64,000 nt of DNA from Crambe crambe (taxonomy: Eukaryota > Porifera > Demospongiae > Poecilosclerida > Crambeidae), in NCBI GenBank assembly GCA_963924555.1, contig OZ004590.1, forward strand, positions 4,000,501 through 4,064,500, written 5' to 3'. The translations under genes were made by a program, and so were the position numbers. Position 1 is the first letter of the stretch; each line of letters begins with the position of its first letter. Of this stretch, positions 39,978 through 45,868 are shown piece by piece. The notes beneath the pieces are model-generated. The model saw only the letters and a list, made by a program, of their open reading frames with translations. It was not told the origin of the DNA and did not search any database.

Positions 39978-42900
39978 CTATAGACAACATGAACGTTGAG
40001 GAGGTGGGTCGTTTGGGGGAATATTCCCCACCAGTCCTCTCATGCCTACTACTTTAGAATAACTACTGGTATTATAAGTGCCATTGGTGTGGTTTTCTGT
40101 GGTATAGTTTGGTGTCAGTCCAGGGCCACCGTCAGTGTCTGCAGTCCCACCAAGATCCACAACATCCACTGGGAGGTCTGGTTCACGACTTGACAACTCC
40201 AGGATTTTCTTTACCAGTGTTTCCATGGCTTCATCTATGAGGAGATAATCCCACAATGTATTACAACTTCAGCGAGAGCCAGAGGCAGTCTCCTCCCTCT
40301 TAGTGAAGCTCCATTTTGTATAGTGATGGAACCTTTCTCTCCATTAATAAGCTCCCACACCAGTGACCCCCAATTATATTATCTCTATGTATTCACCTCA
40401 AAAAGGTTGTGTTGTGCTCTCTCCAGCTAGCTAGCTAGCTACTTACTTACTTATATTTGTGCCTTCCTTTGCTGAAGTAGGATACCTGTGAGATACGACA
40501 TTGCAGTTAGGTATACGTAAATTTGCATTCACTCGACACCTTTATAATTCACTACTAGCTACATACATATAGCTTTCTCAGTTTTCAGATTTCAAAACTA
40601 GTGGATGATCAGTTGTTCTAGGTGAAATTTAGAGAATTGAGAAAGTTAGAGCTAATCAAGTGAATGCAAATAGAGATCAGTAAAATGTACACAGACTATA
40701 ACCTATAGCATAATATGTATGTATGTATGTACCATGCTATTATGTTGTGCTTTGAGCAGAATTCATCCACTTTTGTTGAGTCTATTTGATGATTCTCTGC
40801 ATCACACTGTAAAGGAAAAGAAGAAGAGAAAGAAGAAAGAAAGAAAAAAGGCAAACATAGGCCTAGGCCTGACCACTATTTTGGGGAAAACAGGTTAATT
40901 ATTGTCAAATAAATCAATAACAAAATAAACTGTTCTATGATGCAAATTGTAGAGCTTCAGTGGTCTGGAGGATTACTATTCAATTTCGGGCCTGACCAAT
41001 TGAATCACCTCTGGAAAATGCTGTCACTCTGTCACTGTTAATGATCATAGAGAGTGCATGTGGCTTACCTTATTAGCCAATACAAGGATGGGAACAGGGT
41101 CTCCATTCTCCAGCACAACTTTCTGATTTACATCCTCTAGCCACTATAATCACATCACAATAGTGAGTTAACGATTGTGGTTTGGTAGGTATGTTGAAAA
41201 AAAGAATCATTCTACGTAGCAGTGTCATGCTTCCACAATTGGCCCAATAGAGGGAAAACAGACCATAACACTTAATTGGGCAGATTTCACAACTAGCCAA
41301 CTATATATACAATTAACTACTCACCTTCAATACAGAATCGAATGTTACTTGTCTGCAGTAAAGAAAATAGTTATAAAGGTCATGTGACTCTGAAAATAGT
41401 TATAAAGGTCATGTGACTCTGATTCATGTTTGTGATAAGGATAGATAGCCACTAGTTAGTGTATATAAACATTCTTTTAGGGACATAACACCCAACAACA
41501 ACAACATAACTACCAGACAGACAGACCACTTTATTCTCAGGTCAGCTCTTAATGTTCTATTGTAGCTAATTAACAATTATTATGAGCTGTGCTGTTTGAC
41601 AGTAAAATCTTGCTAGGGCACACTTCTCCTTGAATGGCTTGTGTGACAACTACACAACTTGCCTTGTCAAGTCGAAGACTATAATGGCTCCAATCCTGTT
41701 GGAAAGCAAGACAAGTTCAATAAGTACATACTTGATGTGCAGTGTACAATGGTGTATACACATTAGCTAATAGCATAACAGTTTACAATAATTGGTGCCT
41801 GTATTTCGATAGAGGTAATATGAATTCATTCATTCTAAAGAAACTGTAAAATTTACTGTATTAGCTATAATGTGAATTTTCAGTACGTGTACTTCCTAAT
41901 CATAAACCTCAAGAGTTCAATATAATTGTATTGAGCAGTGGAAAATTTAATTTCTATAATAAATTTAATACTCCTCTTACGCATATTTGTAGTACACTCT
42001 GGTCATGTGTCCAAATCTCTCGTGGCCTGCAATGTCCCTAGTAAATGAGTACAAGAACGGACAAATATAGCAGCATTAATAATTATATCAAGTGTGAAAA
42101 TCTTGCATTGGAGACGTATTATGTGGCTTGGACCTTACCACAATGATATGAAATCATTGAACTTTCGCATGCATGTATGTTTTACTTGGCCCTCCTTATG
42201 CATGGAGGATTCTTGAAGCCAGAAAAATCATATTTATTTACTACCTCAAGAGAGTATGGGGATGTATCAATGCCAATGATCATACTGATGATGGTCCTGG
42301 AGTCCTAGAATTCTGTCAGAAGTTGAATATATTATTAAAAGGGCAAGTTAGATAGCCAGAGCTGTGTAGGCATGGATTATAGTTGCAGGTGTGGCAAAGG
42401 AGAACATTAAGTGTAGGTCTCACATGGGTAGTTATATATTCAAAGCAGGTGTGGCAAAGGAGAACATTGCAAGTTGCTATTTTTTCTCTTGTCTAGCCAG
42501 CCCAGATTAGCTACTGTGTAAGATTGTTATTAATTTTCTAACTCTAACCATAACTGTAGATTGATTTTGAGTCCAGGATTCCATGATAACGTCTTCAATG
42601 AGAAATCAACCCCAATCGTCAACTTATAGTTTGGAGAGAAGATTCCTATGGTTGATAAAAGAAAGATGTGTCTAGCTAGATAATGTGAATGATGGTGGTA
42701 TCTACTGTATTAGAACCTGCCTTCTGTATATCTTCTAATGATTGAGGTCTGCAGAGAGATCATGTATATTATGATTGAACATCTACAGTGGAGTTTTAAG
42801 ACTCACCTTTCCTGAAAGATATCAGGATTTATGAGTAGATGTACCCATTTGAATATGAAGAAAAGAACATGAATAGTAAGTATAGTAAATGGATCTATTG

Positions 42901-43084
42901 TTATCAACTCTTGTTTCCTAAGCTAGCTCTAAACACACTGTTACTCACCTACACCGAAATCTCCAATCACAAGGACCTTGTACAGGTGTTCATGCAACTT
43001 CTCGTCGGCCACTTCGTGTCTATACTCGTGCCCCGGAGGCGGGTCCAGCGATTCCGAATGTTTGGCTTCTGCTTGCTCCTCCAT
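39978..43084 (-). CDS. Rab32/Rab38-family small GTPase
   Basis: Eleven exons: 43084-42949, 42811-42807 (5 nt), 42748-42721, 42645-42549, 42037-41981, 41695-41663, 41352-41325, 41143-41069, 40806-40733, 40485-40451, 40234-39978; 274 aa, all phases match. Seen: P-loop 'GDFGVGKTS' (about 43-51), 'TIGVDFSLKTLSW' of switch I, 'LWDIAGHERFGHMTRVYYK' of switch II, 'LANKCD' (G4), 'TSAKEG' (G5), and a C-terminal 'RSCCL' for prenylation. 'WDIAG' rather than WDTAG is a signature of Rab32/38. Known: Rab32/38 direct traffic to lysosome-related organelles and act near mitochondria. Oddities: the catalytic Gln of switch II is His; the tail before the cysteines is longer than usual; two introns (after 42721 and after 41663) start with GC. 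Confidence 0.93.
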
Positions 43085-43252
43085 CACGGGCAAAAATTTA
43101 TGGTGCGTACCGAATCTGAGGAGGAGCGATCAAAAATGGAGCCCCGCCCGAAATGCTATTCTTGAGCCCCGCCCACGACCAAGTTTGTATGGGCGGGGCT
43201 CCACTCATGCATGCATGGCCTTTGACCTTTTTACTTTCTGAGGAAGAAAGGC
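43085..43252. promoter_or_regulatory. 168-bp bidirectional promoter with three GC boxes (Rab32 / methyltransferase)
   Basis: Start codons at 43084 (-) and 43253 (+) face apart. The interval has GCCCCGCCC at 43141 and 43167, and GGGCGGGGCT at 43191-43200; the last two form an inverted pair. These are typical Sp/KLF binding sites and fit a TATA-less housekeeping promoter. Confidence 0.65.
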
Positions 43253-44755
43253 ATGTCAATGATGTCGTTGGGAATTAACCGTGAAGGGGCAGCATACGTC
43301 ATTGCTGGGGCTCTTGGAGTGGCTGCTGCCGGTGTGGGAGTGTTCTTGATTCGCAGAAAGCATAAAGAGGCAAGGAATCTAAAATCCAAAGCAAATAATA
43401 TATATATGTAGGCCTATAAGGAACTTTGTGGATAAATCATTATCTTGTATGTTATAGACGGAGGGATCCAAGCTCTATGAGACAGAGAAACTGGTGAATG
43501 AGTATCTTGGCTTTCATTACTGCCCTCCAAAGGAGTACATGGCATATGACTTTGGACCAGAGGGTGCTCTGGATTTCCCTAAAAGGTGTACAGACCTGTG
43601 CCTCCGCTACAAAAATGTAAGTGGGTGCTTGGATGTAATCATTTATCAGTTTACATCAATCATCTTCATCAGAAGCACTTTCTCTGACCAAATGTATTCT
43701 CTCCTCCCAATACATCAACCATCTCCTTCAACAGTACCTTGAGTTACCACCTTGCTGTACCTCTAGCTAGCTAGCTAGCTCTGCACTTCCATCCTTAATA
43801 TGATGACCCTTTACCAAATGAACATCTTCTTTACTTTTTTTAGGCATGGGTGCTCAGTAGAGCTATAGACATTGGTTGTGCAGTGGGAAGGTCAACCTTT
43901 GAACTTGCCCGCGAGTTTGATGAGGTGATAGGTGTGGATTTCTCCCACGCCTTCGTTGCTAAGTGTCAAGAGATGAAAATCACAGGACAGGCAAAGTATT
44001 CCCTCACTGTGGAGGGTGACTTGGTAGAGAAAAAGATGGCTACAATTGACCCTGCAATAGTGAGTGTAAATTGAAAGCTGGGGTGGTATGAATATATTTG
44101 GACTCTACATGAGTTACTACAGACACTGAACAAATAATAATACACCAATGACTGGTATTATTAAATTAAGAGGGACCTGTACAAAATGACATTTCCCAAT
44201 ATTCAGTGTGTCATCTAATGTGCTCAGTCAGGTTAGCTGAGTACTTCTCCCATTGCACCTTCCACCCCTGTGAATACACACCTCATATTATGTGTACCAC
44301 TCTAGGACCGTTCCCGTGTGAGTTTCACAGTGGCAGATGCCTGCAACTTGCCCGACTTAGGAAAGTTTGGGTGTGTCTTTGCAGGAAACCTCATCTGCCG
44401 TCTCCCTGAACCAATGGGATTTTTCAACCGTCTCTCTGACATGATAGTGCCTGGGGGGATTCTGTTCATCACCTCTCCTTATACCTGGCTAAAGTCCTAC
44501 ACTGAAAAGGTATAGCCTCGTTCCCAGGCCTTCCTCTCCACCTCGCAAAATTAAACTTTGCGAGGTGGAGAGGAAGGCCTGGGAACGAGGCTAGAAAAGG
44601 TATATATAAGAACCTCTAATAAGGGCCCACCCACACTGAAAGAGGTCAACAAAGGACAATCTAAAGTATGATACTATACAGAATAACCTTCAATAGAGGA
44701 CAACAAACAAAAAGGCTGGGTCCCAAGTTGGCCTCGAACCCAGTCTCTCTTTTTT

Positions 44756-44796
<41 letters not shown>

Positions 44797-45124
44797 AAAA
44801 AGAAAAAAGAAAAAGAGGCTGGGTTTGAGGCTAGGTCCCAAATGTGTTAAGGTTCCACAGCTTATGGAGGAAGAGGATAAAGGAAAAAATTAATGCCATA
44901 TTTTAACAGCTTATTATTTTTTATTGTTATACACATCTTAGGAGAAGTGGCTTGGTGGGTACATGAAGGATGGTGAGGAAGTACGAGGCTTTTCTACCTT
45001 GAAACAAATTTTGGAACCAAATTTTGAGCTATTGGCCGATCAGGATTTCCCATTCCTGATCCGAGAGACTGTTCGCAAGCATCAGTGGACTGTGGCTCAT
45101 GTGACCATATGGAAGAGAAAGTAA
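43253..45124 (+). CDS. Membrane-anchored SAM methyltransferase of the OvoA C-terminal (4-mercaptohistidine N1-methyltransferase) type
   Basis: Exons 43253-43369, 43458-43616, 43844-44059, 44306-44509, 44942-45124; 292 aa. Residues about 13-34 form a hydrophobic anchor followed by 'RRKHKE'. Then 'LYETEKLVNEYLGFHY', the SAM-binding motif 'AIDIGCAVGRSTFELA' with acidic 'VIGVDFS' at strand 2, 'VADACNLPD', 'NLICRLPEP' and 'ITSPYTWL'. This set is characteristic of the methyltransferase module found at the end of the ovothiol enzyme OvoA and in stand-alone relatives. Here no sulfoxide-synthase module precedes it, so ovothiol synthesis is not shown; the substrate is unknown. Intron 1 needs a GC donor (GAG|GCAAGG) to keep frame. 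The first of three closely spaced in-frame ATGs was taken as start. Confidence 0.85.
44513..44593. repeat. Perfect foldback: 37-bp arms, 7-nt loop, at a splice donor
   Basis: 44513-44549 is exactly complementary to 44557-44593. The outer end reads TAGCCTCGTTCCCAGGCC. It begins three bases into the intron that follows exon 44306-44509, so transcription makes a large hairpin directly after the donor. Related outer-end sequence occurs at 59287 and a partial one near 55130-55145. Confidence 0.95.
44750..44794 (+). repeat. T16-G29 homopolymer block
   Basis: A run of T followed directly by 29 G, in the same methyltransferase intron. Homopolymer length is uncertain. Confidence 0.9.
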
Positions 45125-45258
45125 CTTGGTATGAGGTGCAGGACTGAATGAATTATTTTTTTGATAATGATACGCGCGCGCGTCAAGCGAAGGGTTTTCC
45201 CCTTACACACGTGGTTAACCACCTAATACTGTGGATTAATTAGAACTATTGCAGAGCA

Positions 45259-45868
45259 ATGGACAACTTGACAAAGGAACAGAGAGATCAACTGGAAATC
45301 ACGCAGGTAGACAGCTACATAAGCTGTGAATGGAGACGTTAGATTACGGTGATGTGTTTTCGTTGCAGTTTAAAGAGTTTATGATGACATATAACAATGT
45401 CACTGAGAACTGCTTCACCGAATGTGTCAACGACTTCACTTCGAGAAAAATCCTCAAGCAAGAAGTAAGGTTACTGTATGATCATGATGGTCAGTGGTTT
45501 AAATTCTCGGAAGCTAGCTAGCTAGCTATATAGAAAATTGGTCGACCCTTTACCATATTATGGTAAAGGCTCCTGCCCCCTAACTAAATCAGGGTACTTT
45601 TAGAGAAGTTTCAGCCCTGCCTTTTTACTAAGTACTGTCTTGGTATCTAAACAATGTTTCTCAACCCCCTCGTGGCAGCACATCTAAATGCTTTAATTTC
45701 ATAGCTGTGAAGTGTGGGAATTATTGTTCATCCTATCACTGTATTTTTCTCAAGGTGACATGTTGTGAACATTGTGTGGATAAGTACATCAAGATGAGTC
45801 AGAGAGTAACCATGCGTCTCCAAGAACACTTTGCAATCCAGCAAGATGCTGCTGCTTCTCGATCATGA
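45259..45868 (+). CDS. TIMM9: Mitochondrial import inner-membrane chaperone Tim9
   Basis: Exons 45259-45306, 45369-45464, 45755-45868; 85 aa, the family's usual size. The twin CX3C motifs are complete: 'CFTEC' and 'CCEHC' (second Cys pair outer C's), and flanking 'FKEFMMTYNNVTENC', 'VDKYIKMSQRVTMRLQEH' match Tim9 rather than Tim8, 10 or 13. Known: Tim9 and Tim10 form a hexameric chaperone in the intermembrane space that carries hydrophobic precursors to the inner membrane; the four cysteines form two disulfides via Mia40. No presequence is expected or seen. The gene starts 134 bp after the methyltransferase stop on the same strand, with a CG-dinucleotide run (ACGCGCGCGCGT) between. Confidence 0.95.

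Follow-up and report, generated by a model that had tools for sequence, protein, structure and literature searches.

Does a Rab GTPase gene of the sponge Crambe crambe complete its P-loop through an exon of only five nucleotides, and could the inclusion of that exon turn the GTPase on or off? The locus lies in a stretch of 64,000 nucleotides (contig OZ004590.1, positions 4,000,501 to 4,064,500 of the forward strand), referred to here as the window, with all positions counted from its first letter unless a contig is named. An exon this short is likely to be missed by gene finders even though a working protein depends on it, and an annotation lacking it would label this Rab broken or truncated. 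The analysis described below indicates that the five bases, GAAAG, are probably a real coding exon, predicted to be constitutively included, of a Crambe crambe gene that is most likely Rab32LO (Rab32B).

Gene Model and the Five-Nucleotide Exon

The Rab gene occupies 43084-39978 of the minus strand and was modelled with 11 coding exons of 136, 5, 28, 97, 57, 33, 28, 75, 74, 35 and 257 nt, which join into one open frame of 274 residues plus a stop codon. The product matches the Pfam Ras family (3.3e-42) and Rab-32 in the PDB (3e-64), with the P-loop aligned without a gap. It carries the G motifs of a Rab GTPase, namely GDFGVGKTS, for which GAAAG is needed, together with NKCD and TSAK.

Exon 1 (42949-43084, minus strand, as are all exons and introns of this gene) extends over 136 nt from the start codon to GDFGV-G and ends in phase 1 (GGT GTA G|). 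It is followed by intron 1 (42812-42948, 137 nt, GT-AG), the five-nucleotide exon 2 (42807-42811) and intron 2 (42749-42806, 58 nt, GT-AG), the shortest intron of the gene, which lies in phase 0 between Lys47 and Thr48. Exon 3 (42721-42748, 28 nt) starts in phase 0 (|ACC TCA, the beginning of TSII) and encodes TSIIRRYTE-G. Switch I (FSPNYKLTIGVDFSLK) is located in exon 4 (42549-42645), and switch II (DIAGHERFGHMTR), with its two histidines, in exon 5 (41981-42037). Exons 6 (41663-41695) and 7 (41325-41352) precede exon 8 (41069-41143), which ends in LANK and is followed by an NK|CD intron common to the Rab32/38 paralogue. The remaining coding sequence comprises exon 9 (40733-40806, CDAENHQ...IIA-W), exon 10 (40451-40485, YPTSAKEGTNI-N) and exon 11 (39978-40234), which supplies the C-terminal part and ends in RSCCL-stop.

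Two of the ten introns were modelled as GC-AG, one after exon 3 (42720-42646, AAG|gcaggt) and one after exon 6 (41662-41353, CAAG|gcaagt). The GC donor of the former is required for the frame despite the presence of a GT donor 4 nt downstream. The need for two such introns counts against the gene model favoured here.

Bases 42807-42811 read CTTTC on the plus strand and GAAAG on the minus strand, where they are flanked as tttcag|GAAAG|gtgagt. They contribute the last two bases of the P-loop glycine codon and the whole lysine codon: together with the final G of exon 1 they form GGA AAG, Gly-Lys, and the P-loop becomes GDFGVGKTS, the joined exons reading GDFGVGKTSIIRRY. The exon arises where two introns interrupt the P-loop codons at sites five bases from each other (GTAG|GAAAG|ACC once spliced), each of them after AG. 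It has the attributes of a microexon, with a length within 30 nt, AG and GT flanks and a compatible frame (5 nt, entered in phase 1 and left in phase 0). The first-pass annotation had given the coordinates, flanks and both phases of this exon without stating a strand, and these are borne out on the minus strand; its proposal that a 5-nt exon carries the P-loop lysine, restoring GKTS between exons 1 and 3, agrees with the model as well. A recursive (ratchet) splice site was also considered and rejected: exon 2 begins with GAAAG rather than GT, so its joint with exon 1 creates no GT donor.

Alternative Sources of the Lysine and the Role of Chance

The 200-nt gap between exons 1 and 3 was scanned for every single exon preceded by AG, followed by GT or GC and leaving the frame open to the end. 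Ten candidates were obtained, and GAAAG alone restores GKTS. Transcripts might in principle draw the P-loop lysine from another small exon, acceptor or donor, and open-frame joins of this kind do exist, for example through the exons TAACA and AGCTA or through an acceptor 53 nt before exon 3. No such route within the 200-nt gap yields GKTS, whether by a single added exon, a longer acceptor side, a longer donor side or a donor in the last 60 nt of exon 1; the sole other join found to contain Gly-Lys again uses GAAAG, paired with an exon 1 donor lying 6 nt further upstream, at the cost of two P-loop residues. The case that the first-pass annotation had set against its own proposal, a lysine drawn from a different small exon or acceptor, was thus not found in the gap with one added exon at a time, and we consider this route barely credible.

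A different concern is that the gene is decaying, with a mutated P-loop in which GAAAG is a chance resemblance. The full pattern YAG|GNAAR|GTRAGT does occur at background frequency in the genome, with 59 matches against 76 in a reversed control, and beside switch I one residue of the class signature is changed, FSLK standing where FALK is expected. The remaining exons nevertheless join into an open 274-residue Rab with G motifs, exons 1 and 3 lack precisely Gly-Lys, and the rate expected for the full pattern is about 4e-5 per 200-nt stretch of one strand (59 in 2 x 143.1 Mb). In addition, the assembly of this species, odCraCram1.1, is reported at QV 58.1 (PMC12166358). Decay accordingly appears highly improbable. 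Dinucleotide shuffles of the gap, with the outer splice signals left off, contained an in-frame AG|GNAAR|GY in 198 of 20,000 cases, and YAG|GNAAR|GTRAGT with its full splice signals in 0 of 20,000. A match to the pattern is in itself no evidence; the case for a true exon depends on a position that supplies exactly the residues missing from exons 1 and 3.

The genome searches covered 143,139,886 bases in 119 contigs, the published total being 143,197,480 in 124 scaffolds (PMC12166358). The 14-mer YAGGAAAGGTRAGT, which contains GAAAG exactly, has 15 matches in the genome and 8 in the reversed control, and 8 of the 15 fall within 474529-1036757 of contig C16. Two of these eight CAGGAAAGGTAAGT sites were inspected (L032 and L033) and are the ends of near-identical long open frames, which suggests that the C16 cluster is a gene family. 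Among the eight matches inspected out of the 14 outside the window, two (L036 and L038) lack a long open frame immediately before the match. In both, GAAAG stands between TAG and GTRAGT (L038 at about 1077-1081, C13:6057076-6057080; L036 at about position 1107, minus strand), and these strings could be further isolated 5-nt exons or chance occurrences.

Splice Signals and Proposed Splicing

Compared with the donor consensus MAG|GTRAGT, the donor that follows GAAAG (AAG|GTGAGT) agrees at 9 of 9 positions, a score matched among the ten introns only by intron 7. The acceptor is preceded by an AG-free zone of 81 nt, the longest of the ten introns (24-66 nt in the others); in the window, 37 of 8,565 intervals between successive AGs on both strands reach at least 80 nt. 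The pyrimidine content of the acceptor (13 of 20 positions) is middling for the gene, where it ranges from 11 to 19, and counts against the inclusion of GAAAG.

An exon of five bases is probably too short to be bound by both splice complexes at the same time. As the two splice sites would be too close for simultaneous use, one intron would have to be removed first and the other afterwards, most likely by intron definition across the short introns of 137 and 58 nt. Recognition of the exon would be left largely to the strong donor and the long AG-free zone before the acceptor, its own five bases contributing little, and inclusion would be required for making any GTPase. The gene provides a natural test case, in an animal, for the splicing of a 5-nt exon flanked by two short introns.

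Identity of the Gene and Its Neighbourhood

A phmmer ranking of the 274-residue protein placed Rab-32 (220 bits), Rab-38 (219) and Rab-7L1 (187) well ahead of the next match, Rab-10 (127). In switch II (DIAGHERFGHMTR), both variable positions of DIAGxERFGxMTR are occupied by histidine. Two switch-II histidines are described as exclusive to Rab32LO, earlier known as Rab32B (PMC4728774), and we infer that these class-specific histidines are the two x of the motif; a switch-II histidine in place of glutamine is given as a feature of the class (PMC4728774). The Crambe gene differs from the class in the stretch after switch I, which reads FSLK and retains three of the four residues of FALK, a signature common to Rab32, Rab38, Rab32LO and Rab7L1 in domains compared across deuterostomes (PMC4728774). 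Its likeness to the class extends over the two histidines, the DIAGxERFGxMTR motif, the Rab32/38-like sequence and the linkage to Tim9 described below (PMC4728774). From the best PDB match to Rab-32, the two switch-II histidines and this linkage, the gene is most likely Rab32LO, a name that is not settled because FSLK stands in place of FALK. By analogy with Q61 of Ras, a histidine replacing the switch-II glutamine is expected to slow GTP hydrolysis, and that of the predicted Rab32LO may do so.

Rab32LO has been placed in the last common ancestor of eukaryotes, with losses in urochordates and vertebrates, and its occurrence in the sponge Amphimedon is cited in the same source as already described (PMC4728774). 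The Crambe gene has its P-loop split over three exons; the comparison with the class concerns protein motifs and linkage.

The window contains one of the six zf-Tim10_DDP matches of the genome, which belongs to a plus-strand gene at 45259-45868 with three exons (45259-45306, 45369-45464 and 45755-45868). Its protein matches Tim9 (2bsk) at 8.9e-25, against 1.1e-7 for the best of the Tim10 proteins. Tim9 is a published neighbour of Rab32LO: their microsynteny has been reported in sea urchin and amphioxus (PMC4728774) and is not a formal requirement of the class. In Crambe the two genes are 2.2 kb apart (39978-45868 of the window in all), with a methyltransferase gene between them. The presence of the linkage in a sponge as well suggests that it may predate the bilaterians.

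The intervening gene (approximately 43455-45125, plus strand) matches TIGR04345, the OvoA C-terminal putative 4-mercaptohistidine N1-methyltransferase domain, at 5.3e-72. An apparent intron of this gene contains a perfect 37-nt inverted repeat with a 7-nt loop (44513-44593), and a long homopolymer run, of T and then G, is found at approximately 44750-44795.

Consequences of Skipping

The first-pass annotation had stated that skipping GAAAG loses the lysine and shifts the frame, and the conceptual join of exon 1 to exon 3 confirms both effects: it reads V-D-L-N-H-stop after GDFG and produces a stub of 49 residues, in which a Pfam match at E 0.001 is absent. Retention of intron 1 gives GVGE-stop and that of intron 2 GVGKVSLKTPL-stop, so that a stop is reached within two to nine codons past GDFGV whether the exon is skipped or one of the introns beside it is kept. 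Eight exon junctions lie beyond the stop codon of the skipped form, at distances of 14 to 413 nt, seven of which exceed 100 nt. As the length of 5 nt is not a multiple of three, the skipped form would be a stub prone to nonsense-mediated decay (NMD). Skipping would abolish the protein rather than give a GTPase in its off state. The further suggestion of a possible on/off switch of the GTPase through inclusion of GAAAG alone is not upheld by a product of this kind.

Skipping could still serve to set the amount of protein, with GAAAG kept in some cells and skipped in others so that splicing decides whether Rab32LO is made. The early stop and the junctions beyond it are compatible with such regulation, and of 411 internal microexons in Drosophila (up to 30 nt) 283 undergo alternative splicing (PMC8042270), which leaves room for a regulated reading of GAAAG. 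In contrast, its splice-site strength gives no sign of regulation, the donor being strong, and human coding microexons whose loss breaks the frame went unskipped when tested in cell lines: MPC1 and TNNI1 (4 nt), TMEM237 and KSR1 (5 nt), and MUSK (7 nt), five genes picked beforehand for lacking skipped variants in a database (PMC9929638). For the 4-nt exon of MPC1, a skipped transcript was undetected even under cycloheximide (PMC9929638). Regulated inclusion is on balance unlikely, and constitutive inclusion is the preferred reading. A stronger version, in which GAAAG is an old, selected feature of sponge Rab32LO, a frame-breaking exon set on the catalytic lysine, and its regulated skipping exerts all-or-none control over a Rab with histidine for glutamine in switch II, is quite improbable; if true, control of Rab32LO would lie in splicing and not in the GTP cycle.

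Comparison with Known Microexons

The GAAAG exon resembles those of MPC1, TNNI1, TMEM237, KSR1 and MUSK in being coding, in having a length that is no multiple of three and in breaking the frame when skipped. It differs from them in that inclusion of the human exons was established by RT-PCR sequencing, whereas GAAAG is known from DNA, and in the parts of that report consulted carriage of a P-loop lysine is mentioned for none of the five (PMC9929638). Certain other human microexons of 4 or 5 nt in the same list are alternative, lie in 5' UTRs or fall at the start codon (PMC9929638), which counts against a constitutive reading of GAAAG. In MPC1 minigenes, exon lengths of 4, 2 and 1 nt made no marked difference, and with the exon reduced to 0 nt both lariats still formed, provided that both splice sites were intact (PMC9929638).

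In plants, microexons of 1 and 5 nt (APC11, VPS55-1 and rice Os08t0562700) are likewise tiny and missed by annotation, and VPS55 offers a further parallel, with one paralogue containing the microexon and the other lacking it, as well as GTRAGT donors (PMC8831610). The plant microexons are supported by RNA, and those of APC11 and VPS55 are conserved across species (PMC8831610), whereas GAAAG comes from a single genome. Among the papers listed by term searches of one open-access library, none has a title that concerns a microexon in the P-loop of a Rab or in a Rab of a sponge. Tiny exons are a known type to which Crambe GAAAG adds an example, and the exon is very likely real.

Paralogues and Origin of the Two P-Loop Introns

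A second Crambe gene, L021 (C15:183387 onward), is an ordinary Rab32/38 (PDB Rab-32, 2.6e-88) with its P-loop in one exon. Of its five introns (six modelled exons, start excluded), only the one at NK|CD falls, as compared by eye, where the putative Rab32LO gene also has one of its ten introns. About 57 matches of a genome profile search run unbroken through the P-loop, as judged by eye among the matches listed, in a search to which exons this short are invisible. L029 is a DNAJC27-like gene for a small GTPase with an HPD J-domain segment behind it. Its P-loop intron (2118-2215) lies between Lys and Ser (K|S), at the same place and in the same phase 0 as intron 2, so this site accepts introns elsewhere in the genome.

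No second genome match to introns 1 and 2 was found in a search that skips very common words and could pass over a very abundant element. The two introns are unlike each other and have in common only an 8-nt inverted word. Intron gain from a repeated element or by tandem duplication was considered on these grounds and rejected, neither being visible at that level of search. The simplest reading, drawn from one paralogue, would be that both P-loop introns were gained independently in the Rab32LO line.

Several Rab32-like GTPase copies (L023-L026 and L028) lie within C5:8212000-8458000, with P-loops that read ASAVGKT, EPGVGKT, EPAVGKT and GLCGKT, an apparent local expansion. In the Rab32/38 paralogue L021, at approximately 2040-2250, an acceptor together with the first bases of the exon behind it (TTTAG|GTGTATTATAAAGAAGCAGTGGGGGCTTTTGTAGT) occurs twice in tandem.
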